From: Burkholderia sp. USMB20
GTDB lineage: Bacteria; Pseudomonadota; Gammaproteobacteria; Burkholderiales; Burkholderiaceae
DNA length: 64,000 bases
Direction of reading: 5' to 3'
Assembly: GCF_000949135.2 (NCBI RefSeq)
Contig: NZ_JTAN02000019.1
Coordinates: 1 to 64,000, forward strand
In this document: positions 5,057-64,000 of the stretch, in pieces
Position numbering within the stretch: position 1 is the first letter of the stretch
How the letters are laid out: each line of letters starts with the position of its first letter
The notes under the pieces: model-generated
Told to the model about the DNA's origin: nothing
The model's database searches: none
Seen by the model: only the letters and a program-made list of their open reading frames with translations
Program-made: the position numbers and the translations under genes

Positions 5057-5818
5057 TCAAGCCGTCAGCGTCACCGACAGGCTGCCGAGTTCACCGAAGC
5101 GCACCGTCAGCGCATCGCCGAGCGGCACGTCGATCGCACCCGCATACGAACCGGTCGTCACGATCTGGCCGGCCCGCGCGCCGTCGCCGCGCGATGCGAG
5201 GAAATTGACCAGCCATACCAGCGGCTTGAGCGGATCGCCGTCCGGATGACGGCCGTCGATCGTGCGATTCAGCGCACCCTCGAACGACAGCGCGAGCGTC
5301 TCGAGCGGCACGTTCAATCCGTCGGGCACGACGGGACCCACGCACAATCCCTGGTTGAACTGCCCGTCGGCGAGCAGTTCGAACTTCGATGCGCGCGCGG
5401 GCTCCGCATAGCGGCAACCCAGCACCTCGAGCACGATGCGCACTTCGCGGATCGCGCCGCGCACGTCGTGCTCGTCGTACGGCTGCGCGCGGGCGGGCAG
5501 GTCGCGATCGAGCACGAACGCGATTTCCGGCTCGATCCGCACGATCGGGCCGCCGACGACGCGGTACGGCGCATCGGCTGCGCGGATCGTCGACGCGAAG
5601 ATCGGCGCGACGATCACGCGGTCGGGCGGCGGCAGCGCGCATTTCCATCCGCCGATGGATTCGCCGAGCAGGTCGGCGACGCGATGCTGGATCGCGAGTG
5701 CGGTATCGACGTTCTCGGGGCGCAAGGCGTCGGGCAGCAGCGGGCCGGGCACGCCGGCATGGCGGGCGGCGACGAGATGCTGGGCGGCGCCGTCCACGCG
5801 TTCGGTAGTCGTTGTCAT
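5057..5818 (-). CDS. 2-keto-4-pentenoate hydratase family protein (MhpD/HpcG type)
   Basis: A 253-residue enzyme of the fumarylacetoacetate-hydrolase-like hydratase/decarboxylase family, which adds water to 2-hydroxy-dienoates in meta-cleavage pathways of aromatic degradation. Recognisable family segments are the W-K-C-A region near residue 48, EPEIAFVLDRDLP near 95, and the C-terminal VLVTTGSYAGA-like stretch (IVTTGSYAGA). Start set at 5818 because the sequence upstream is not family-like. No other meta-cleavage genes are adjacent, so the true substrate is uncertain. Confidence 0.8.
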   Translation of the reverse strand: MTTTTERVDGAAQHLVAARHAGVPGPLLPDALRPENVDTALAIQHRVADLLGESIGGWKCALPPPDRVIVAPIFASTIRAADAPYRVVGGPIVRIEPEIAFVLDRDLPARAQPYDEHDVRGAIREVRIVLEVLGCRYAEPARASKFELLADGQFNQGLCVGPVVPDGLNVPLETLALSFEGALNRTIDGRHPDGDPLKPLVWLVNFLASRGDGARAGQIVTTGSYAGAIDVPLGDALTVRFGELGSLSVTLTA

Positions 5819-6084
5819 GTCGGTTGAGCGAGTTGAAAGTGAGCCGGCAAAAAAGGGCCGGACGAAGGTCGTAACGTCGATGATAGCGCCTTCGGCGGCA
5901 TGGCCGCTCGGCAGCCCGGTTCGGCCACCGGGACGGCGCCCCGGCTGCTCCGCGTGGCGCTTTGCCGCACGACCCGCTGTCGGGGGAATCTTGATCGCCG
6001 TCAACCTTCGAACCGGCCGTCCGCCGATGATGGGCACATGGCCGCGCGCGACCGCGCCCGGCAACTCACCCCAGCGAGGTTCGC

Positions 6085-6564
6085 ATGTACAAGAAGATCA
6101 TGGTGGCCGTCGACGGCAGCGCTTCGTCGAAACAGGCGCTTGCCGAGGCAGTGAAGGTGGCACTGGCGGGCGACACGCACGTCAGCGCCGTCTATGTGGT
6201 CGACAAGTCGGTGCTGTTCACGTACGCGGGCCGTTTCGACCCGCACGCGCTCATCGAGGAAATCCGCGACGACGGGCGCAAGGTGCTGCGTGAAGCCGAA
6301 CAGATCATCGCACTGGCCGGCGCGAAGGGCGAGGCCGAGCTCGTCGAAACCGAGAGCATCGGCGAGGACGTCGCGGAACGCCTGCAGCGTTACGTGACGG
6401 AGCGCGGGATCGACCTCGCGGTGGTCGGCACGCACGGGCGGCGCGGCATCCGGCGCGTGCTGCTCGGGAGCGTCGCCGAACGCTTCGTGCGCGGTGCGAA
6501 GTGCCCGGTGCTGCTGATTCGCGGCGATGATGCCGGCGAGCCGGCGTCCGCCGCGGCAGCCTGA
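6085..6564 (+). CDS. Universal stress protein, UspA family
   Basis: A 159-residue single-domain Usp protein. It begins with the standard strand MYKKIMVAVDGSASSKQAL and ends with the nucleotide-binding signature G-x2-G-x9-G-S (GTHGRRGIRRVLLGSVAE) followed by CPVLLIR, which places it among ATP-binding Usps. An AGCGAGG-type ribosome site precedes the ATG. A tiny membrane-protein gene follows 12 bases later and is probably co-transcribed. Confidence 0.92.
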   Translation: MYKKIMVAVDGSASSKQALAEAVKVALAGDTHVSAVYVVDKSVLFTYAGRFDPHALIEEIRDDGRKVLREAEQIIALAGAKGEAELVETESIGEDVAERLQRYVTERGIDLAVVGTHGRRGIRRVLLGSVAERFVRGAKCPVLLIRGDDAGEPASAAAA

Positions 6565-10095: not shown

Positions 10096-11247
10096 TCAGT
10101 TCGACGCGCCGCCGACCGTGCGAATGCTGTGCCACTGCCCCTGTTCGACGCGGAACAGCGTGTAGGGCGGCTTGATCAGGTCGCCGCGCTCGTCGAACGA
10201 GATCTTCCCGGTCACGCCCGTGACCGACACGCCCGGCAGGCTCGCGACGATCTTGCTGCGGTCGAGCGAATCGGCCTTGCGGATCGCCGCGATCATCGCG
10301 AGCGCCGCGTCATACGCAAACGGCGCATACAGCTCGACGTCCTGGTTGAAGCGCGCCTTGTAGCGCTGCGCGAACGCGATCGCCGACGGCAGCTTGTCGA
10401 GCGCCGGCCCCGGCTCGAGATCCTGCGTACCTTCGCCCGCATTGCCGGCGATCTTCAGGAACGCATTGCTTTTCAGCGCGCCGGCGCCGAACAGCTGCGC
10501 GCGGATGCCGAGCGAGCGCATCTGCTTGACGAGCATCGCGCCCTGTTCGTCGAGGCCGCCGAAGAACAGCAGGTCGATGTTGTTGCTCTTCATCGTGGTC
10601 AGGATGCCGCGGAAATCGACCGCCTTGTCGTTCGTGTATTCGCGGCCGACGATGGTGCCGTGCGCGTCCTTCACACCTTTCTCGAATGCGTCCGCGAGCC
10701 CCTGGCCGAATGCGGTGCGGTCGTCGATGATGCCGATCCGCCTGGCCTTCAGCTGCTCGACCGCGAAGCGTCCGGCGACCACGCCGCCGACGCCGTCGTG
10801 CCCCATCGTGCGGAACACGTTCTTGAAGCCCTGCATCGTCAGTTGCGGATTGGTCGAGCCGGGCGTGATCATCGCGACGTTCGCCTGCTTGTAGACGGCC
10901 GACGCGGGGATGCTGCAGCCCGAGTTGTAGTGGCCGACCACGCCGACCACGCCGTCGTCGACGAGCTTCTGGCCGACCTGGATCGCGATGCGCGGATCGG
11001 CCTGGTCGTCCTGCACGTCGAGCACGAAGCGCACGGGCTTGCCGCCGATGGTCGGGTGTTTCGCGTTCTCCTCGTCGAGCGCGAGCTGCGCGCCGTATTG
11101 CAGGTCCTTGCCGACGCGCGCGACCGGGCCCGTCAGCGGGCCGGCGAAGCCGATCTTGACGGTTTCCGGGTCCGCGGCCTGCGCGGACGCGGTGACCGTG
11201 CCGATCGAGCAGACGGCCAGCCATGCCAGCCAGTTACGACGATTCAT
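10096..11247 (-). CDS. Branched-chain amino-acid type ABC transporter binding protein
   Basis: A 383-residue periplasmic binding protein of the LivK/LivJ family. A signal peptide ending ASAQA-A is followed by VKIGFAGPLTGPVARVGKDL, the family's first strand, and by GVVGHYNSGCSIPAS and MITPGSTNPQLT in the hinge region. It lies 36 bases downstream of the FAD oxidase gene in the same direction, with a GGAGG ribosome site, so the two form an operon divergent from the MocR regulator at 12745. The transporter's permease and ATPase genes are not in this window, so this protein may feed a shared Liv system. Confidence 0.9.
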   Translation of the reverse strand: MNRRNWLAWLAVCSIGTVTASAQAADPETVKIGFAGPLTGPVARVGKDLQYGAQLALDEENAKHPTIGGKPVRFVLDVQDDQADPRIAIQVGQKLVDDGVVGVVGHYNSGCSIPASAVYKQANVAMITPGSTNPQLTMQGFKNVFRTMGHDGVGGVVAGRFAVEQLKARRIGIIDDRTAFGQGLADAFEKGVKDAHGTIVGREYTNDKAVDFRGILTTMKSNNIDLLFFGGLDEQGAMLVKQMRSLGIRAQLFGAGALKSNAFLKIAGNAGEGTQDLEPGPALDKLPSAIAFAQRYKARFNQDVELYAPFAYDAALAMIAAIRKADSLDRSKIVASLPGVSVTGVTGKISFDERGDLIKPPYTLFRVEQGQWHSIRTVGGASN

Positions 11248-11283
11248 GATGCCTCCTTGCAGTGGTGGAAGTGGCGGCGCGCG

Positions 11284-54496: not shown

Positions 54497-54892
54497 ACGG
54501 GCTGCCGACTGTGCGCTGACCGGTACACGCTCTGGAAAAATAGTTGCGCACACAACTGTAATCGAATCGTCGTGACTTGCACAGAGACCGCCGAACCTGA
54601 CAGGCGCCCGTGACTTTCGACGGCGGTTGCTCGACCGAGGTGATCGCGGCGCCGTTCGCGATCATGAACCCGAGCGCGAACAATCCGGCATTTCCGGTGC
54701 CGACATGGAGGCGCAGTCGACACGATGCGCCGCACGGCCGCGCTGGCCGCCGCAATCGGCGTGTCGATCGACGACGACGCACCGGCCGGCTGACCACGCA
54801 CCGCACCCACCCCTGCGCGCACGGGCGCGCGCCTTGCTCGAACAGTGTGACGGTACTTGCACCGTTACCGCTTTCGACAAGGAGGGCCTGAC
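54497..54892. other. Intergenic region with possible gene debris
   Basis: No gene I can support. Part of the minus strand (about 54610-54670) reads GLFALGFMIANGAAITSVEQ, which looks protein-like but is not framed by a start. Otherwise shadow coding. Promoter of the dehydrogenase probably lies at the right end. Confidence 0.35.
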
Positions 54893-56098
54893 ATGAAAGC
54901 AGTCGTATTTCACGGCATCGGCGACATTCGCATCGATACGGTACCCGACCCGCAAGTCGTCGACGTGACCGATGCGGTCGTGCGCCTGACGGCCAGCGCG
55001 ATCTGCGGCACCGACCTGCACATGGTGCGCGGCACGCTCGGCGGGATGAAGCCGGGCACGATCCTCGGCCATGAGGGTGTCGGCATCGTCGAGACGGTCG
55101 GGCGCGACGTGCGCAACCTGAAGCGCGGCGATCGCGTGCTGATTCCGTCGACGATCGCGTGCGGCAGCTGCGTGTACTGCCGCGCGGGCTACACCGCGCA
55201 ATGCGACGTCGCGAACCCGGGCGGGCCGCGCGCGGGCACCGCGTTCTACGGCGGCCCGGCCGACACGGGGCCGTTCGACGGGCTGCAGGCCGAATACGCG
55301 CGCACGCCGCTCGCGAACGCGAGCCTGATCCGGTTGCCGGACGCGATCGACGACGACCGGGCGATCCTGATGTCCGATATTTTTCCGACCGGCTACTTCG
55401 GCGCGCAGCTCGCGGAAGTGAAGCCGGGCGACACGGTGGCCGTGTTCGGCGCCGGGCCGGTCGGCCAGTTCGCGATCGCGAGCGCGAAGCTGATGGGCGC
55501 CGGGCGCGTGATCGCGATCGACCGCATCGCGTCGCGGCTCGAGATGGCCTGCGCGCAAGGCGCCGAGACCATCGACTTCTCCGAGGAAGACCCCGTCGAC
55601 ACGGTGCTGCGGCTCACCGGCGGGATCGGGGTGGATCGTGCGATCGATGCGGTGGGCGTCGACGCGATGCGCGCGACGCATGGGCCGGCCGCCGCCGACC
55701 ACGACGCGGCGCGTGCGTTCGATGCGGAAGTCGATGCCGTCGCGCCGCGCCGCAAGCCCGACGGCCGCTACTGGACGCCCGGCGACGGGCCCTCGCAGGT
55801 ACTGCAATGGGCGGTACGTGCGGTCGCGAAGGCGGGCACGGTCGCGGTGATCGGCGTGTATCCGCCGCAGGCGCGCGTGTTTCCGGTCGGCGAGGCGATG
55901 AACCGGAACCTCACGATCAAGATGGGCAACTGCAATCACCGGACCGTCACGCCGCACCTGATCGAGCTCGTGCGCAGCGGTGCGTTCGACCCGGCGTCCG
56001 TGCTGACGCGCTGCGAGCCGCTGACGAACGCGATCGACGCGTATCGCGCGTTCGACGTGCGCGAGCCGGGCTGGCTGAAAGTGAAGCTGACGCCATGA
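54893..56098 (+). CDS. Zinc alcohol dehydrogenase, formaldehyde dehydrogenase-like
   Basis: A 401-residue medium-chain dehydrogenase. Catalytic zinc: Cys41 in ASAICGTDLHM and the GHEGVGIVE motif. Structural zinc cysteines in STIACGSCVYCRAGYTAQC. NAD motif VFGAGPVGQFAIASAKLMGA. The insert around residues 265-305 is typical of glutathione-independent formaldehyde dehydrogenase relatives. Start at ATG 54893 with AGGAGGG upstream. Followed 29 bases later by the cysteine-rich protein gene. Confidence 0.9.
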   Translation: MKAVVFHGIGDIRIDTVPDPQVVDVTDAVVRLTASAICGTDLHMVRGTLGGMKPGTILGHEGVGIVETVGRDVRNLKRGDRVLIPSTIACGSCVYCRAGYTAQCDVANPGGPRAGTAFYGGPADTGPFDGLQAEYARTPLANASLIRLPDAIDDDRAILMSDIFPTGYFGAQLAEVKPGDTVAVFGAGPVGQFAIASAKLMGAGRVIAIDRIASRLEMACAQGAETIDFSEEDPVDTVLRLTGGIGVDRAIDAVGVDAMRATHGPAAADHDAARAFDAEVDAVAPRRKPDGRYWTPGDGPSQVLQWAVRAVAKAGTVAVIGVYPPQARVFPVGEAMNRNLTIKMGNCNHRTVTPHLIELVRSGAFDPASVLTRCEPLTNAIDAYRAFDVREPGWLKVKLTP

Positions 56099-56127
56099 CG
56101 CTGCGAACCGCAACGAGGAGTGCTGCC

Positions 56128-56460
56128 ATGAACGGGTTCCATGATCTCTACGACAACTGCATGGCCGCGTGTGACGCGTGCGCGCATGCATGCGACGCGT
56201 GTACGGCGGGGTGCCTGGCGGACCCCGACACGCACGCGCTGGCCGCTTGCATCGCGCTCGACATCGAGTGCGCGCAGCTGTGCCGCCTTGCCTCGGCCGC
56301 GATGGCGCGCGACAGCGTGCTCGCGCCGCAGGTGTGCGCCCTGTGCGCGCGTGCGTGCGAGGTGTGCGCGGCCGAATGCCTGCTGCATGCGCACGACCAT
56401 TGCCGGCGCTGCGCGCTGGCATGCGATGCGTGCGCGGCGATGTGCCGCGCGATGGCATGA
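56128..56460 (+). CDS. Cysteine-rich four-helix copper-binding protein
   Basis: A 110-residue protein with 19 cysteines, most in C-x2-C/C-x3-C spacing along helices (CMAACDACAHACDACTAGC; CALCARACEVCAAEC; CRRCALACDACAAMC). This is the DUF326/copper storage (Csp) pattern, where Cys-lined four-helix bundles hold many Cu(I) ions. No signal peptide, so cytosolic. GAGGAG precedes the ATG. Co-directional with the dehydrogenase upstream and convergent with the hybrid kinase. Confidence 0.9.
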   Translation: MNGFHDLYDNCMAACDACAHACDACTAGCLADPDTHALAACIALDIECAQLCRLASAAMARDSVLAPQVCALCARACEVCAAECLLHAHDHCRRCALACDACAAMCRAMA

Positions 56461-56464
56461 GCGG

Positions 56465-58063
56465 CTACGGCGCGCCGTGGACCTTGCGCGCGACGCGCTC
56501 CAGCAGCGCGTCGAGCACCGCCATCTCGACGGGCTTCACGAGGTGATCGTCGAAGCCCTCGCTCGCGGTGCGCGCGAGATCGGCCGGGCTCGCATGGCCG
56601 GACAACGCGACGCAGGTCGTGCCGGCCAGCGCATCGATCGCGCGCAGTTCGCGCAGCAGCGTGAAGCCGTCGACGTCGGGCATCGACAGGTCGACGAGCA
56701 TCAGGTGCGGAACGATGTCGCGCGCGAGCGCCAGCGCGTCGTCCGCGTGGTACGCGACGCGCGGCGCGTGGCCCTTGATCCGCAGCAGCACGGCGAGCGT
56801 GTCGGCGGAGTCGCGGTTGTCGTCGACGATGACGATGCGCAGCGGCGCGCCGGCCGGCGGCTCGGTCGTGCGCGGCGCCGGCGCCGGCGCGTCGTCACCG
56901 GGCGTCGGGCGCATCGCGCGCTCGAGCGGCAGCCGCACCGTGAACGTCGCGCCATGGCCGGGGCCGGCGCTTTCCGCGGCGATCCTCCCGCCATGCAGCT
57001 CGACGAATGACCGGCAGATCGCGAGGCCGAGCCCGAAGCCGTCCGACGCGCGCCGGCCCGGCACGCTTTCCTGTTCGAACAGGTCGAAGATCGATTCGAG
57101 CGAACCCGGCGCGATGCCGACGCCGTGATCGGTGATGCGAATCGCGACGACCGATCCTTCGGCGCTCGCGCTGACGTCGATGCGCCCGCCCTGCGGCGAG
57201 AATTTCGACGCGTTGTCGAGCAGGTTGTGCAGCACCTGCACGAGCCGCGCGGCGTCGCCGCGCACCACCAGCGGATCGGCCGACAGGTCGACGCGAATGT
57301 TCTGCTCGCGTGCGGCCAGCTTCGGCTGGATGCTTTCCACGCCGCGGCAGACCACGTCGCGCACGGTCACCGGCGCGTGGTCGAGTTGGACCTTGCCGGC
57401 GGTGATGCGCCCGACGTCGAGCAGGTCGTCGACCAGCCGCGTCAGCTGTCCGACCTGGCGATGCACGGCGTCGCGGCATTGCGCGAGCGCGGGCGCCGGA
57501 TCGGGCAGGCTCTGCAGCACGCCGACCGAATTGCGCAGCGGCGCGAGATGGTTGCGCAGCTCGTGCGCGAGCATCGCGATGAACACGCTGAGCCGGTGCG
57601 TCGACACCTCGAGTTCGGCGAGCCGCTTGCGCTCGGTCATGTCGCGCGTGATCTTGATGAAGCCGGCCAGCTGGCCCGCATGGTCGTGCACGGCCGTGAT
57701 CGTCACGCTGGCCCAGAACAGCGAACCGTCCTTGCGCACGCGCCAGCCTTCGTCCTCGAAGCGGCCGTGCACGACGGCTTCGCGGAGCCCGAATGCGGGC
57801 CGCCCGGCGACGATCGCATCGGGCGGATAGAAACGCGAGAAATGGTGGCCGACGATCTCGGCCGTCCGATAGCCCTTGATGCGCTCCGCGCCCGCGTTCC
57901 ACGTCGCGACGTTACCGTGCGCGTCGAGCATGAACACCGCATAGTCGGTGATCGCACCGACGACGGTCTCGAAACGGAACTCGGCGAAGCGGTGCAGCAG
58001 GTCGCGTGCATCGGCGGGCCCGAGCGGCGGGTGGAGATCGGAAATGGCGTCGTCTTTCTTCAT
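56465..58063 (-). CDS. PAS-histidine kinase-receiver hybrid
   Basis: A 532-residue soluble sensor kinase: PAS domain at residues ~30-145 (ITDYAVFMLDAHGNVATWNA, RKDGSLFWASVTI, GFIKITRDMTERK), phospho-acceptor His167 in FIAMLAHELRNHLAPL, ATPase domain to about 390 (NLLDNASKFSP, DHGVGIAPGSLESIFDLFEQ, GFGLGLAICRSFVELHGG), then a C-terminal receiver with Asp in LMLVDLSMPDVDGF and Lys in DHLVKPVE. No membrane helices. No separate response regulator is next to it, but a receiver domain fused to an ABC exporter is encoded 2 kb away. Confidence 0.93.
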   Translation of the reverse strand: MKKDDAISDLHPPLGPADARDLLHRFAEFRFETVVGAITDYAVFMLDAHGNVATWNAGAERIKGYRTAEIVGHHFSRFYPPDAIVAGRPAFGLREAVVHGRFEDEGWRVRKDGSLFWASVTITAVHDHAGQLAGFIKITRDMTERKRLAELEVSTHRLSVFIAMLAHELRNHLAPLRNSVGVLQSLPDPAPALAQCRDAVHRQVGQLTRLVDDLLDVGRITAGKVQLDHAPVTVRDVVCRGVESIQPKLAAREQNIRVDLSADPLVVRGDAARLVQVLHNLLDNASKFSPQGGRIDVSASAEGSVVAIRITDHGVGIAPGSLESIFDLFEQESVPGRRASDGFGLGLAICRSFVELHGGRIAAESAGPGHGATFTVRLPLERAMRPTPGDDAPAPAPRTTEPPAGAPLRIVIVDDNRDSADTLAVLLRIKGHAPRVAYHADDALALARDIVPHLMLVDLSMPDVDGFTLLRELRAIDALAGTTCVALSGHASPADLARTASEGFDDHLVKPVEMAVLDALLERVARKVHGAP

Positions 58064-59088: not shown

Positions 59089-59979
59089 ATGCAACGACGA
59101 TCTCCCGGACGGCAAGCCGAACGGAGCGGCCCGCCCGACTGGCAGGAGCGCGGCGAACGCGCGTACCGGGACACCGGCGAGCGCGATTTTCGCGGCGACG
59201 AATCCCGGCGCCACGATGCCGACTACGAATCCGCGTACCGGCGCTTCGCGAGCGAGGACGTCGGCCCGGAAGACTGGGGCAGCGAATGGAGCGAGCGCTC
59301 GGCCCGCTCGTCGGCCGAACAGCGCGGCGCAGACGCCGGCGCCGACTGGCGCGGTGCGCCGGGCGGGCCGGGCGGTTCGCGCGATCCGGCGTGGGAGTCC
59401 GGGCGCGGCGACGGCAACCGCGGCCGCACAGCGGAAGGCGGCCAGGGACGTGAAGGCGCCCATGCCGACCAGCCGCGGTTCCGCGGCCAGCACCGGACGG
59501 GCTGGCATGGCGGCGAGGGCGACTACGACGCCTACAACGGGCGCGACCAGCGCCGTGCCGATGCGTCCGGCCTGTCGCGCTTCGGCGACGCCGCGCAACG
59601 CGAGGCCATGCGGCATCGGCGCGGCCCGAAAGGCTATACGCGTTCGGACGAGCGGATTCGCGAGGACGTCTGCGAGCGGCTCGCGCATGCGCTCGACATC
59701 GACGTGAGCGATGTCTCCGTGCAGGTGCGCGACGGCCGCGTCGAACTCGACGGTACCGTGCCGCAGCGCTGGATGAAGCACGACATCGAGGACATCGCCG
59801 ACGGCTGCATGGGCGTGCGCGACGTCGAGAACCGCGTGCGCGTGCGCCGCGACGGCGAACAACCCGATACGGGCATGGTGCTGCATCCGTCCCAACGCAC
59901 GGTTACGCCGACGCAGCCTGCGGCGCGCGATCCCGAACCGGGTAGCGGCGCCGGCCGCGAGCGCGATCCGCGCCGTTGA
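59089..59979 (+). CDS. BON-domain protein with long disordered N-terminus
   Basis: A 296-residue protein. Residues 1-180 are rich in Arg, Gly, Asp, Glu and Gln without hydrophobic stretches. Residues ~185-252 form one BON domain: SDERIREDVCERLAHALDID, VSVQVRDGRVELDGTV, DIADGCMGVRDVENRVRVR. BON domains usually bind membranes or lipids and occur in periplasmic OsmY-like proteins, but no signal peptide is present. AAGGAGG lies 6 bases before the ATG. Its stop overlaps a possible TTG start of the ABC fusion, suggesting an operon. Confidence 0.85.
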   Translation: MQRRSPGRQAERSGPPDWQERGERAYRDTGERDFRGDESRRHDADYESAYRRFASEDVGPEDWGSEWSERSARSSAEQRGADAGADWRGAPGGPGGSRDPAWESGRGDGNRGRTAEGGQGREGAHADQPRFRGQHRTGWHGGEGDYDAYNGRDQRRADASGLSRFGDAAQREAMRHRRGPKGYTRSDERIREDVCERLAHALDIDVSDVSVQVRDGRVELDGTVPQRWMKHDIEDIADGCMGVRDVENRVRVRRDGEQPDTGMVLHPSQRTVTPTQPAARDPEPGSGAGRERDPRR

Positions 59980-62864
59980 CGGCCGATGCGCGGGACGACC
60001 CGGCCAAGGCCGCGGACACAGCCAATGCGCGCATGACGACCGGCTCTGACGACGGACCGCGTGACGACGGCGACATTCGCGACGATCGCGACTCGAGCGC
60101 CAGCGCGCCGCGCGACGGTCGTGGCCGCGACGCACGTGGCCTGCGCGCGCGCATCGCGGTCGAGCTGTGGCGCGCGATCCGGCATTACCGCGCGCGCGTG
60201 CTGGCCGCGCTGGCGCTGCTGCTGCTCGCGAAGGCGGCGGCCGTTTCGGTGCCGCTGCTGCTGAAGGACATCGTCGACGGGCTGGGCCGCGCGGCCGGCC
60301 AGCCGGTCGCGCTGCCGGTTCTGCTGCTGTTCGCGTATGCGGTCGTGCGCTTCGCGGCGAACGCGCTGAACGAAGTGCGCGACATGACGTTCGTGCAGGT
60401 CACGCAGCACGCGGTCGCGTCGTTTACGGTCCGCACGTTCGGTCATCTGCACCGGCTCGGCGCGCGCTTTCATTCGCAGCGCGAAACCGGCGCCGTCGTG
60501 CGCGACCTCGAGAAAGGCACGGCCGGGATCGGCTACCTGCTCGGCGTCGCGGTGTTTACCGTCGTGCCGACCGCGATCGAGATCGGCTCGGTGCTGGTGA
60601 TCGTGATCGGCAAGTACGGCGGCGGCTTCACCGCGATCATCCTCGTCACGTTCGCCGTCTATGCGGGCTACACGACCGTCTTCACGCGCCGGCGGATGCG
60701 CTACCAGCGTCGCGTGAACGTGCTCGAGGCCGAATCGAACGCGCGCGTGGTCGACAGCCTGCTCAACGTCGATACCGTCAAGTACTTCGCGCGCGAGGAC
60801 GTCGAGCGCAGCCGGCTCGAACGCGTGCTCGACGCATGGCGCGAGGCCGGCGTCGACAACCAGTACGCGCTGTCGACGCTGCATATCGGGCAGAGCGCAT
60901 GCATCGGCGCGGGCATCGCGGCGGTGATGCTGCTCGCCGGCCAGCATGTCGCGCGCGGCACGATGACGGTCGGCGATCTGGTGCTGATCAACGCGTACAT
61001 CATCCAGATCAGCCTGCCGCTGAATGCGCTCGGCTTCGTGTTCCGCGAGGCGCACGACGCGATGACGAACATCGAACGATTGTTCGGCCTGCTCGACGCC
61101 CGCGGCAAGCCCGGCGAGGAGGGCGACGCGCCGGGCGCGCAGCCGCTCGCGGTGCGCGGCGGCGCGATCGAGTTCGAGCACGTCGACTTCGGCTACGAGC
61201 CGAGCCGGCAGATTCTGTGGGACGTGTCGTTTCGGGTCGAGCCGGGACAGTCGGTCGCGGTGGTCGGCGGGAGCGGCTCGGGGAAGTCGACGCTCGCGCG
61301 GCTGCTGTTCCGGCTGTACCAGCCCGATGCGGGGACGATCCGGATCGACGGCCAGGACCTGCGCCTCGTGACCGAGCGCAGCCTGCGCGATGCGCTCGGC
61401 ATCGTGCCGCAGGACACGATCCTGTTCAACGACACGCTGGCCTACAACATCGCATACGGCAAGCGCGACGCGACGCGCGGCGAAGTGATCGCGGCCGCGC
61501 GCGGCGCGCAACTCGACGCGTTCATCGAACGGCTGCCCGATGCGTACGACACGCGTGTCGGCGAGCGCGGCGTGCGGCTGTCCGGCGGCGAGCGGCAGCG
61601 TGTCGCGATCGCGCGCGCGCTGCTGAAGGCGCCGCCGATCGTCGTGTTCGACGAGGCGACGTCGGCGCTCGATACGCGCTCGGAGCGCGCGATCCAGCAG
61701 GAACTGATGCGCGTCGCGCGGCACCGCACGAGTCTCGTCATCGCGCACCGGCTGTCGACGATCGTCGATGCGGACCGGATCCTCGTGATGGAGCATGGCC
61801 GGCTCGTCGAGCAGGGCACCCACGACGAACTGCTGGCGAGCGACGGCGTGTATGCGCAGATGTGGTCGCTGCAGGCGAAGCAGCGCGAACTGGAGCGCAC
61901 CGAGGCGAAGTTCGCGCTGCAGCCGGTGCGGATCAACCCGCTGGTGGCGCAGGTGCTCGATGCGCTGGCGGAAGCCGCCGCGCGCCGCGGCGTGCCGGTG
62001 TTCCGCGAGCTGTCGAACGAGGATCTGGTCGTCAAGGCCGATCCGGCCGCACTGCGGCGCTTCGTGTGGGAGCTGTGCCGCGGCGGGATCGACACGAGCG
62101 GCGGCGGGCGGGTCGAGGTGCGGACCGCGCGGCACGACCCCGACGCGCGGATCACGATCACGTGCACCGGCGTCGACGCGCCGGAGCTGTCGCTGGCCGA
62201 TCTCGAACGGCTGCAGGGCGCGATCGAGGACGCGGGCGGCTACGTCGTTCGCGAGCGCGACGACGTCGGCGTGACGTTGCACCTGTCGCTACCGCTGTGC
62301 GCGGTCGCGCCGGCGTCGCTGCAACCGGCCGACGCGGCCGCACCGAATTCCGGGCCGGGCGCCGTTGCGGCCGCGGACGCGAAACCGCTCGACGGCGTGC
62401 GCATCGCGTGCGTCGACGATCACGACGAGGCGCGCGAAGCGCTTGCCGCGCTGCTGCAGGTCGCCGGTGCGGAGGTGCGCGTGTTCGCGTCCGGCCACGC
62501 GCTGCTCGACGAGATGCGGAACACGCGCCGCGCGGACTGGCCGGCGCTCCTGGTATGCGACATCGACCTCGGCGCCGACGAGGAAGACGGCTACACGGTG
62601 ATGCGCCGCGTGCGCCAGCTCGACGCCGAGCGTGCGCGCGACGGCCGGGCGCCGCTCGAAGCGCTCGCGTTGTCGGGCCATGCCCGCGAGCGCGACCGCA
62701 CGCGCGCGGTCGAAGCGGGTTTCCACGCCTATCTGACCAAGCCCGCGGCAGCGGCCGACCTGATCGCGACGCTGCGGGCGCTCGCGCTTTCCTCCGGAGA
62801 TATCCATGCCGAACCTTTCGAATCCGACGCCCCCCGAAGTCCTGACCGAGCGCCGCGCCGGTAG
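59976..62864 (+). CDS. ABC exporter fused to kinase-ATPase-like and receiver domains
   Basis: A 962-residue protein with an unusual architecture (residues counted from TTG 59976; ATG 60033 is another possible start). Residues ~60-365 are an Atm1/MsbA-type membrane domain (RETGAVVRDLEKGTAGIGYL, NVDTVKYFAREDVE). Residues ~395-630 are a complete ABC ATPase: Walker A GGSGSGKST at 431, signature LSGGERQ at 535, Walker B IVVFDEATSAL at 555, and the switch His in IAHRLST. Residues ~650-775 look like a degenerate histidine-kinase ATPase domain (AALRRFVWELCRGGID as N-box-like; no clear G boxes). Residues ~805-935 are a receiver: Asp814/815, Asp862 in LLVCDIDLG, Ser900, Lys922. The ABC half resembles exporters of glutathione- or sulfur-linked metal species. 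TTGA overlap ties it to the BON gene. Confidence 0.92.
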   Translation: MTADARDDPAKAADTANARMTTGSDDGPRDDGDIRDDRDSSASAPRDGRGRDARGLRARIAVELWRAIRHYRARVLAALALLLLAKAAAVSVPLLLKDIVDGLGRAAGQPVALPVLLLFAYAVVRFAANALNEVRDMTFVQVTQHAVASFTVRTFGHLHRLGARFHSQRETGAVVRDLEKGTAGIGYLLGVAVFTVVPTAIEIGSVLVIVIGKYGGGFTAIILVTFAVYAGYTTVFTRRRMRYQRRVNVLEAESNARVVDSLLNVDTVKYFAREDVERSRLERVLDAWREAGVDNQYALSTLHIGQSACIGAGIAAVMLLAGQHVARGTMTVGDLVLINAYIIQISLPLNALGFVFREAHDAMTNIERLFGLLDARGKPGEEGDAPGAQPLAVRGGAIEFEHVDFGYEPSRQILWDVSFRVEPGQSVAVVGGSGSGKSTLARLLFRLYQPDAGTIRIDGQDLRLVTERSLRDALGIVPQDTILFNDTLAYNIAYGKRDATRGEVIAAARGAQLDAFIERLPDAYDTRVGERGVRLSGGERQRVAIARALLKAPPIVVFDEATSALDTRSERAIQQELMRVARHRTSLVIAHRLSTIVDADRILVMEHGRLVEQGTHDELLASDGVYAQMWSLQAKQRELERTEAKFALQPVRINPLVAQVLDALAEAAARRGVPVFRELSNEDLVVKADPAALRRFVWELCRGGIDTSGGGRVEVRTARHDPDARITITCTGVDAPELSLADLERLQGAIEDAGGYVVRERDDVGVTLHLSLPLCAVAPASLQPADAAAPNSGPGAVAAADAKPLDGVRIACVDDHDEAREALAALLQVAGAEVRVFASGHALLDEMRNTRRADWPALLVCDIDLGADEEDGYTVMRRVRQLDAERARDGRAPLEALALSGHARERDRTRAVEAGFHAYLTKPAAAADLIATLRALALSSGDIHAEPFESDAPRSPDRAPRR

Positions 62865-63333
62865 CGCGTTTGCCGACCGCCAGGCCGCGGTCGCCGCCGT
62901 CGAGCTGCTGTTGCCGACGTTGTCGGCCGCGTTGCAGAGCGACTTCGTCGGCGACAGCGGCTGCCTGCACGTCGTGATCATGGATCCGGCGCTCGGGCCG
63001 CGCGACGCGGCGTTCGAGGATGCGATCCTGTACGAGTTCTCGCTGCCCGATCCGAAGGACTGGGATGCCGATTATCGTGCGTACGCGCGCGCGAAGGCGC
63101 GGCTGTCATGGGAAACCGGCCGCGACGGCCACGTCGTGCAGGCGCTCGAGCCGTACCGGCTGCGCGCGGGCGACACGAACCTGTGGGGCGGCGTCGCGCA
63201 GCACGGCATCGTGGTCGGCGTGTCGGGCGCGCAGCCCTGGTTCGACGAGGCGTTCGCGGGCTGCATCGCGCACTGCCTGCGTGCGCTCGCGAAGCACCGC
63301 GCGCAGGCGACGCCGGACGCGCTCGCGATCTGA
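62806..63333 (+). CDS. Unrecognised protein downstream of the ABC fusion
   Basis: A 175-residue soluble protein of no family I can name. It begins inside the last 59 bases of the ABC fusion, with GGAG 7 bases before the ATG, so it is translationally linked. The N-terminus is helical (AAVAAVELLLPTLSAALQSD), the middle is a mixed region (CLHVVIMDPALGP, ILYEFSLPDPKDWDADYRAY) and the C-terminus ends with GGVAQHGIVVGVSGAQPWFD followed by a helix with two Cys (AGCIAHCLRALAKH). The QPWFDE motif looks conserved. Confidence 0.75.
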   Translation: MPNLSNPTPPEVLTERRAGSAFADRQAAVAAVELLLPTLSAALQSDFVGDSGCLHVVIMDPALGPRDAAFEDAILYEFSLPDPKDWDADYRAYARAKARLSWETGRDGHVVQALEPYRLRAGDTNLWGGVAQHGIVVGVSGAQPWFDEAFAGCIAHCLRALAKHRAQATPDALAI

Positions 63334-63508: not shown

Positions 63509-64000
63509 ATGTTGAACCCGACTCACGATCCAGCCCGACCGTTGTTGGCCGGTCGCACCGCGCTCGTGACGGGCGGCGGTCGCGGCCTGGGCGAGGCCAT
63601 CTGCGAGGAACTGGCGCAACACGGCGCACACGTGATCGTTGCCGATCTCGACGGCGATCGCGCGGCGGCCGTCGCGCAGCGCCTCGAGCGGCATGGCGGC
63701 CGCGCGGTCGGACGGCCGCTCGACGTGCGCGACGAGGCGTCGGTGCTGCAGGTCATGCACGACGCGCGCGAGGCGCTCGGCGACGTCGACGTGATCGTCA
63801 ACAACGCGGCGATCGACGTGACCGCGCCGATCGACGACGTCAGCGTCGCCGCCTGGCAGCAGGTGATGATGACCAACCTGTTCGGCCCGTACCTGATGTG
63901 CCACGCGGCCGTGCCGATGATGAAGGCCCGCGGCAGCGGCCACATCGTCAACATCGCGTCGACCGCATCGAAGCGCGCATGGCCGAATGCGTCCGCGTAT
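63509..64000 (+). CDS. SDR-family oxidoreductase, 3' end cut by window
   Basis: The first 164 residues of a short-chain dehydrogenase/reductase. TGxxxGxG appears as TGGGRGLGEAICEEL, NNAA motif as VDVIVNNAAIDVT, and the active-site Ser region HIVNIASTASKRAWPNAS. The window ends at the residue where the catalytic Tyr is expected (SAY). GGAGG overlaps the start region; ATG at 63509 or TTG at 63512 could be used. Confidence 0.92.
   Translation, partial: MLNPTHDPARPLLAGRTALVTGGGRGLGEAICEELAQHGAHVIVADLDGDRAAAVAQRLERHGGRAVGRPLDVRDEASVLQVMHDAREALGDVDVIVNNAAIDVTAPIDDVSVAAWQQVMMTNLFGPYLMCHAAVPMMKARGSGHIVNIASTASKRAWPNASAY

Follow-up and report, generated by a model that had tools for sequence, protein, structure and literature searches.

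Two-component signalling acts mostly through transcription, and an exporter that carries a receiver domain of its own raises the question of what that receiver does there. Such a protein is encoded in a stretch of 64,000 nucleotides from Burkholderia sp. USMB20 (contig NZ_JTAN02000019.1, positions 1 to 64,000 of the forward strand), here called the window. We found that a single plus-strand frame, 59976-62864, encodes an Atm1-type ATP-binding cassette (ABC) half-exporter, a dead histidine-kinase catalytic and ATP-binding (CA) remnant and an intact receiver (REC). The original prediction, made from the sequence without database searches, had joined an exporter, a HATPase-like part and a receiver in this frame, and all three were present at these coordinates. 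The ATG at 60033, which gives 943 amino acids and matches the annotated start of the B. multivorans orthologue in an alignment, is more probably the start codon than the TTG at 59976; residue numbers throughout count from the TTG. The features of the gene are as follows.

59976..62864, plus strand: fusion gene, with a TTG start at 59976 and a likelier ATG start at 60033
60201..61019, plus strand: transmembrane domain of the ABC exporter, residues 76-348 (PF00664, ABC_membrane, 6.7e-34), holding the changed pocket residues Gln244 and His303
61221..61883, plus strand: nucleotide-binding domain (NBD), residues 416-636 (PF00005, ABC_tran, 2.7e-33, match at 416-563), with Walker A, LSGGE signature, DEA and H-loop
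61887..62330, plus strand: dead kinase CA (HATPase) remnant, residues 638-785 (hhalign 99.6%, E 7.8e-25), N and G boxes lost
62331..62390, plus strand: variable linker, residues 786-805 (median dN/dS 0.692)
62403..62774, plus strand: receiver domain, residues 810-933 (PF00072, Response_reg, 2.5e-15)
62559-62561, plus strand: predicted phospho-acceptor Asp862, within the receiver
62739-62741, plus strand: Lys922, within the receiver

A frameshift or assembly artefact was ruled out by comparison with other loci. Among 119 loci, a CA remnant of at least 70 bits was found in 118, and an ABC signature lay in the same frame in 116; likewise, all twelve Burkholderia loci from a peptide-pattern scan had exporter, CA remnant and REC in a single frame. 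L099-L103, L105 and L184 have the look of broken or shifted copies, and L112 runs off the end of its contig; each was described in that state. The comparison of fused with split forms that had been proposed revealed no split form in the views taken; in L193-L196, which come from the four fusion-less genomes of the order sample that carry a close carbamoyltransferase, the 20 kb inspected showed no frame with an ABC signature (the view of L196 begins at a contig end). Profile searches on the tail of the window protein found both a REC and a HATPase relation, and no frameshift joined two genes. The fused protein of the window is 92% identical to that of L001, and its exporter is nearest to those of G289 and B. 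territorii in the exporter-core tree.

We then asked whether the receiver has been kept as a working domain. The phospho-site set of the window REC is D814, D815, D862, S900 and K922; Asp862 and Lys922 had been named beforehand with the right numbering. Family-wide upkeep was assessed in 105 unique C-termini, which remained once the five loci lacking a receiver, five duplicates and the three broken loci L100, L102 and L103 had been taken out. Two of these had no letters at the phospho-site, since L112 ends with its contig and L184 leaves the frame, so 103 were readable. All 103 had Asp at positions 814, 815 and 862, and 102 had Ser or Thr at position 900 and Lys at position 922, the exception being L105, in which the frame breaks inside the receiver. 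By its residues, the window protein has an intact response-regulator receiver with acidic pair, phospho-acceptor Asp, Ser/Thr and Lys.

The CA remnant gave a different picture. Pfam HATPase_c did not reach its cut-off, either in the whole protein (E 0.098) or in the segment taken by itself (E 0.005), and matched at E up to 1 in six of nine family members. When CA remnants were compared with five true kinase CA domains, hhalign gave 99.6% probability and E 7.8e-25 over 135 columns, bearing out the degenerate HATPase-like segment proposed earlier, with a gap at the expected place of the ATP lid and G2 box. The expected absence of nucleotide boxes held across the family as well. The first N-box Asn was kept in none of the 105 unique C-termini and the second in 24; a GLGL/GTGL-type (G2-like) box occurred in 0/105, and a DxGxG string in two, not at a checked position. 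Furthermore, HisKA was absent from the Pfam matches of the window protein up to E 1, and kinase alignments started at the CA, leaving no dimerization and histidine phosphotransfer (DHp) domain. With neither an active CA (N box, G1, G2) nor a DHp recognizable, the protein would not be classed as a histidine kinase.

Selection on the tail was estimated from 78 pairs among 13 Burkholderia sequences. Median dN/dS was 0.136 for the ABC part, 0.263 for the CA remnant, 0.226 for REC, 0.692 for the linker and 0.693 for the C-terminal tail, values that show purifying selection on the CA remnant as well as on REC. Together with the motif loss, these values indicate that the CA remnant is constrained despite having lost the kinase active site, and the earlier idea that this part may be a docking module fits the pattern. 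An AlphaFold model of residues 624-940 was weak (mean pLDDT 55.3), with ten-residue blocks of 64-90 over the first 100 receiver residues and of 42-65 thereafter.

One natural loss of the receiver was found. In L104, L109, L177, L178 and L188 the frame stops 23-38 residues past the CA remnant, and these five proteins form one clade (support 100) nested in the fused group of a tree of 121 exporter cores. This reads as a single secondary loss. The receiver is accordingly not indispensable, as five genomes do without it. The absence of REC from one clade, and the constraint on a CA remnant with no catalytic function left, would agree with a structural relic. On that reading CA and REC contribute nothing beyond dimer stability, folding or placement, and phosphorylation has no role. 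A receiver of purely structural use would not be expected to keep its Asp pair, phospho-acceptor Asp, Ser/Thr and Lys in 102-103 of 103 sequences, and we regard this explanation as unlikely.

To learn where the fusion occurs, a CA-remnant profile was run against genome samples. It gave 108 matches of at least 90 bits in 107 of the 398 Burkholderiaceae genomes (one genome with two), the next score being 64.7; the survey of Burkholderiales suggested by the original prediction has in this way shown a conserved fusion. An earlier nine-row profile found seven of 399 genomes at 74 bits or more in the order sample (next score 56.7). At a threshold of at least 180 bits, the class sample had one genome of 369 (G001) and the phylum sample three of 398 (G001, G289 and G318), each of which the Burkholderiaceae sample contains too. 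The peptide-pattern scan yielded its twelve loci in Burkholderia, and eight records of a plasmid collection covered at least 80% of the query (Burkholderia 3, Cupriavidus 1, Paraburkholderia 2, Caballeronia 2). G957, at 69.5 bits, was rejected as a hybrid kinase by its motifs, and each of eleven lower-scoring loci examined had motifs that, judged by eye, resembled those of ordinary kinases. On this sampling the fusion appears to be a Burkholderiales trait.

The exporter trees place the fusion once. Of 35 exporter cores placed in one tree, 25 were fused, and these formed a single clade (100/100) on a long stem among ordinary Burkholderiales Atm1 relatives, and in the quick 121-core tree (midpoint root, SH-aLRT support only) 111 fused cores were split from 10 unfused ones with support 100. 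As to the tail, BLASTP alignments to the hybrid kinases L081 and L082 ran continuously across CA and REC in all ten fusion tails tried (window tail against L081, 32% over 303 amino acids, 2.7e-28; L051 tail, 3.8e-48). Since CA and REC align in one piece, the tail was probably acquired from a hybrid kinase as one block, minus the DHp.

The cargo question turns on the exporter half, which had been called Atm1/MsbA-like. The Atm1 side of this stood: the best solved relative in a search of PDB was NaAtm1 (4mrn; residues 41-637, E 9.8e-151). The MsbA side did not, for the MsbA model TIGR02203 was the top NCBIfam match yet reached 413.1 bits against a cut-off of 602, and the protein was not classed as an MsbA lipid A exporter on this score. 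The pump's ATPase motifs are kept, with DEA and H-loop in 111/111 unique fused cores and the Walker A Lys in 110/111, and the exporter presumably works as a homodimer. According to the excerpted text of PMC9000953, eight glutathione-pocket residues are conserved in AtAtm3, NaAtm1, ScAtm1, ABCB7 and ABCB6. We mapped these eight through the NaAtm1 alignment, assuming a constant numbering offset of 118, which we infer ourselves. Six were invariant across fused and unfused proteins. The pocket Arg (R328/R210) was replaced by Gln and the Asn (N387/N269) by His in 110/110 readable fused sequences (one of the 111 was gapped), whereas all ten unfused relatives, a small control set, kept both. The receiver-less clade carries the identical Arg to Gln and Asn to His changes, so the pocket change tracks the clade and not the receiver.

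By sequence, then, the fusion belongs to the Atm1-type branch of the superfamily; because two of the eight pocket residues have changed, we do not file it as a glutathione exporter. With six residues kept, the protein could still be an ordinary Atm1 exporter that moves glutathione species or metal-glutathione adducts; it would then have a regulatory tail, and its linkage to glycan genes would be incidental. The uniform replacement of the other two speaks against it. In addition, each of four Burkholderia genomes searched already has a separate unfused Atm1 relative, 52-54% identical, with the standard pocket in 4/4.

The genes around the fusion bear on the same question. Those in the window are listed here.

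63512..64000, plus strand: short-chain dehydrogenase/reductase (SDR) gene, first of a glycan cluster, truncated where the window stops; the SDR in B. multivorans L017 is 88% identical to it
62806..63333, plus strand: 175-amino-acid protein, overlapping the 3' end of the fusion gene by 59 bases
54857-56409 and 59089-59952, plus strand: Zn-dependent alcohol dehydrogenase, four-helix copper-binding protein and BON-domain protein, the first two named from the B. multivorans annotation
56468..58063, minus strand: PAS-HisKA-HATPase-REC hybrid kinase (Pfam on 56468-57997)

Neighbours were counted in 100 fusion loci of at least 16 kb, with the window excluded and duplicates of some records included. 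A carbamoyltransferase was in view in 92, a heptosyltransferase-family glycosyltransferase (GT9) in 93 and a GmhB-like HAD protein in 89, and 95 loci had at least two kinds of glycan gene. For the other five, cluster genes were found about 10 kb off in G392 (L197) and about 24 kb off in G654 (L199); G625 (L198) had no cluster gene in a further 15 kb on one side, and the second fusion gene of that genome, L111, adjoins the cluster. L193, L194, L195 and L196, with no ABC-signature frame in their 20 kb, have the glycan cluster or parts of it. In the order sample, a close carbamoyltransferase (at least 63% identity) occurred in 7/7 fusion genomes and 4/392 others (Fisher p 1.1e-12). Stress-type neighbours in Burkholderia (BON, Cu-binding protein, Zn-alcohol dehydrogenase) would suit the ordinary Atm1 exporter of glutathione species, but BON was in view in 17/100 loci and Zn-alcohol dehydrogenase in 23/100, against about 90 for glycan genes, and we consider that explanation very unlikely.

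In B. multivorans L017 the order after SDR is HAD, GT9, carbamoyltransferase, a glycosyltransferase (GT), GT9 and GT4; the families called in the B. multivorans cluster were SDR, HAD, two GT9, carbamoyltransferase and GT2, and the GmhB and heptosyltransferase equivalog models matched under their cut-offs. In the excerpted text of PMC8005017, Pseudomonas WapO, a putative carbamoyltransferase, is linked to a carbamoylated heptose of the lipopolysaccharide core. From this link, a heptose-based, carbamoylated glycan is a reasonable guess at the cluster product.

How might the parts work together? The mechanism that we consider most likely is that phosphorylation gates export directly; in effect the protein would be a response regulator with an exporter as its output. 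Because the tail is without a DHp histidine domain and the CA without nucleotide boxes, a kinase acting in trans would phosphorylate Asp862. Directly behind the NBD, the CA remnant could be a connector or a kinase-docking surface that sets REC against the paired NBDs. Phosphorylation would alter the contacts of REC and help or hinder NBD closure, thereby gating transport of a cargo that may be made in the adjoining glycan pathway, as product or intermediate, and would not be plain glutathione. The phosphorylation, the gating and the nature of the cargo are all inferences from sequence comparisons. Taken as a whole, this reading, in which an exporter for some product or intermediate of that pathway is gated in cis through Asp phosphorylation, has in our judgement about an even chance of being right. 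A narrower version, that this is a widespread response-regulator clade with an ABC exporter as output, in which the in-cis REC gates export of a heptose-containing carbamoylated glycan and the dead CA couples the two, falls somewhat short of even.

The hybrid kinase at 56468..58063 is a possible phosphodonor. It is 77% identical over 533 amino acids to a kinase at the same place in B. multivorans, and the same hybrid kinase adjoins the fusion at several Burkholderia loci. Information could also flow the other way, with the exporter sensing cargo or transport and REC acting, as phosphate sink or as allosteric partner, on a kinase in control of glycan-gene expression. BceAB-BceS, a transporter-kinase pair, is a model for such a flux sensor. 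An intact receiver could drain phosphate as well as gate, and the conserved CA remnant could contact the kinase; a neighbouring kinase is not consistent, however, and sensing needs no receiver in cis, which makes the flux sensor an improbable account.

Several observations weigh against the favoured gating of glycan export. The lack of a consistent kinase neighbour counts here too, intact kinase frames being in view at 24/100 loci, a number to be read without a background density. The five REC-less genomes retain the exporter, the CA remnant and the pocket change, and L104 and L109, the two REC-less loci with the neighbourhood viewed, retain the glycan cluster. The linkage and co-occurrence counts take no account of phylogeny, and in four genomes the close carbamoyltransferase occurs though there is no fusion. 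Finally, most CA-remnant blocks had pLDDT below 50, so that a confident CA fold is unsupported by AlphaFold and the assignment is drawn from the profile comparison, not from the model.

Comparison with known systems helps to define what is new. With Atm1/ABCB7-type exporters (NaAtm1, 4mrn) the fusion shares the half-exporter fold by sequence, the NBD motifs and six of the eight pocket residues described in the excerpt; it adds the CA-REC tail, the Arg to Gln and Asn to His changes and the glycan-gene setting. Hybrid histidine kinases (PAS-HisKA-HATPase-REC, for example L081) share CA followed by REC, aligned continuously, whereas the fusion has no sensor or DHp, has lost the CA motifs and has an exporter attached. 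In PMC12802240, the Myxococcus stand-alone receiver EpsW is reported to activate a glycan-pathway transferase, EpsZ, post-translationally. As with such response regulators with enzymatic outputs, the receiver of the fusion would, on our proposal, have a direct effect within a glycan pathway on a target other than DNA; unlike EpsW, it is C-terminal and in cis, and its target would be an ABC exporter. The SLC5/STAC kinases CbrA and CrbS also join a transporter domain to two-component signalling domains, and in the excerpts used their signalling part is described as a kinase acting via a gene regulator; in the fusion, by comparison, a dead CA stands without any DHp, and the pump's ATPase motifs are kept.

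Among the titles listed by searches of the open-licence PMC literature, aimed at an exporter-receiver fusion or at the cluster or locus, none described such a protein, and where the gene is annotated it is simply called an ABC or ATP-binding cassette protein. As far as searched, the parts are known families, and the combination, the upkeep pattern and the pocket change are undescribed. If the gating holds true, an exporter with its own receiver would mean fast and direct control of transport, spread across a bacterial family, in a class of pump that has human relatives in ABCB7 and ABCB6. The receiver-less clade and the unfused Atm1 relative in the same genomes offer natural comparisons for the role of the receiver and CA remnant, and the heptosyltransferase/carbamoyltransferase cluster is indicated as the likely source of cargo.

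Some further features of the neighbourhood were recorded. The 175-amino-acid protein had no Pfam or NCBIfam match and no convincing match in PDB (best E 0.19). Its kin were in view in 49/100 loci, and in L013 and L050 a relative precedes the SDR-HAD-GT9 genes, away from the fusion. In Paraburkholderia L015, an MshA-like glycosyltransferase and an annotated PIG-L deacetylase lie at 5156-6460 and 10549-11253, both on the minus strand, with an Atm1-type exporter between them. Pairing of an MshA-type glycosyltransferase with a PIG-L deacetylase is known from thiol-sugar pathways; we did not adopt that idea, because the MshA resemblance of the cluster glycosyltransferase was too weak (292.8 bits against a cut-off of 462.5). 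The Zn-alcohol dehydrogenase, copper-binding and BON genes stand in the same order beside the fusion in B. multivorans.

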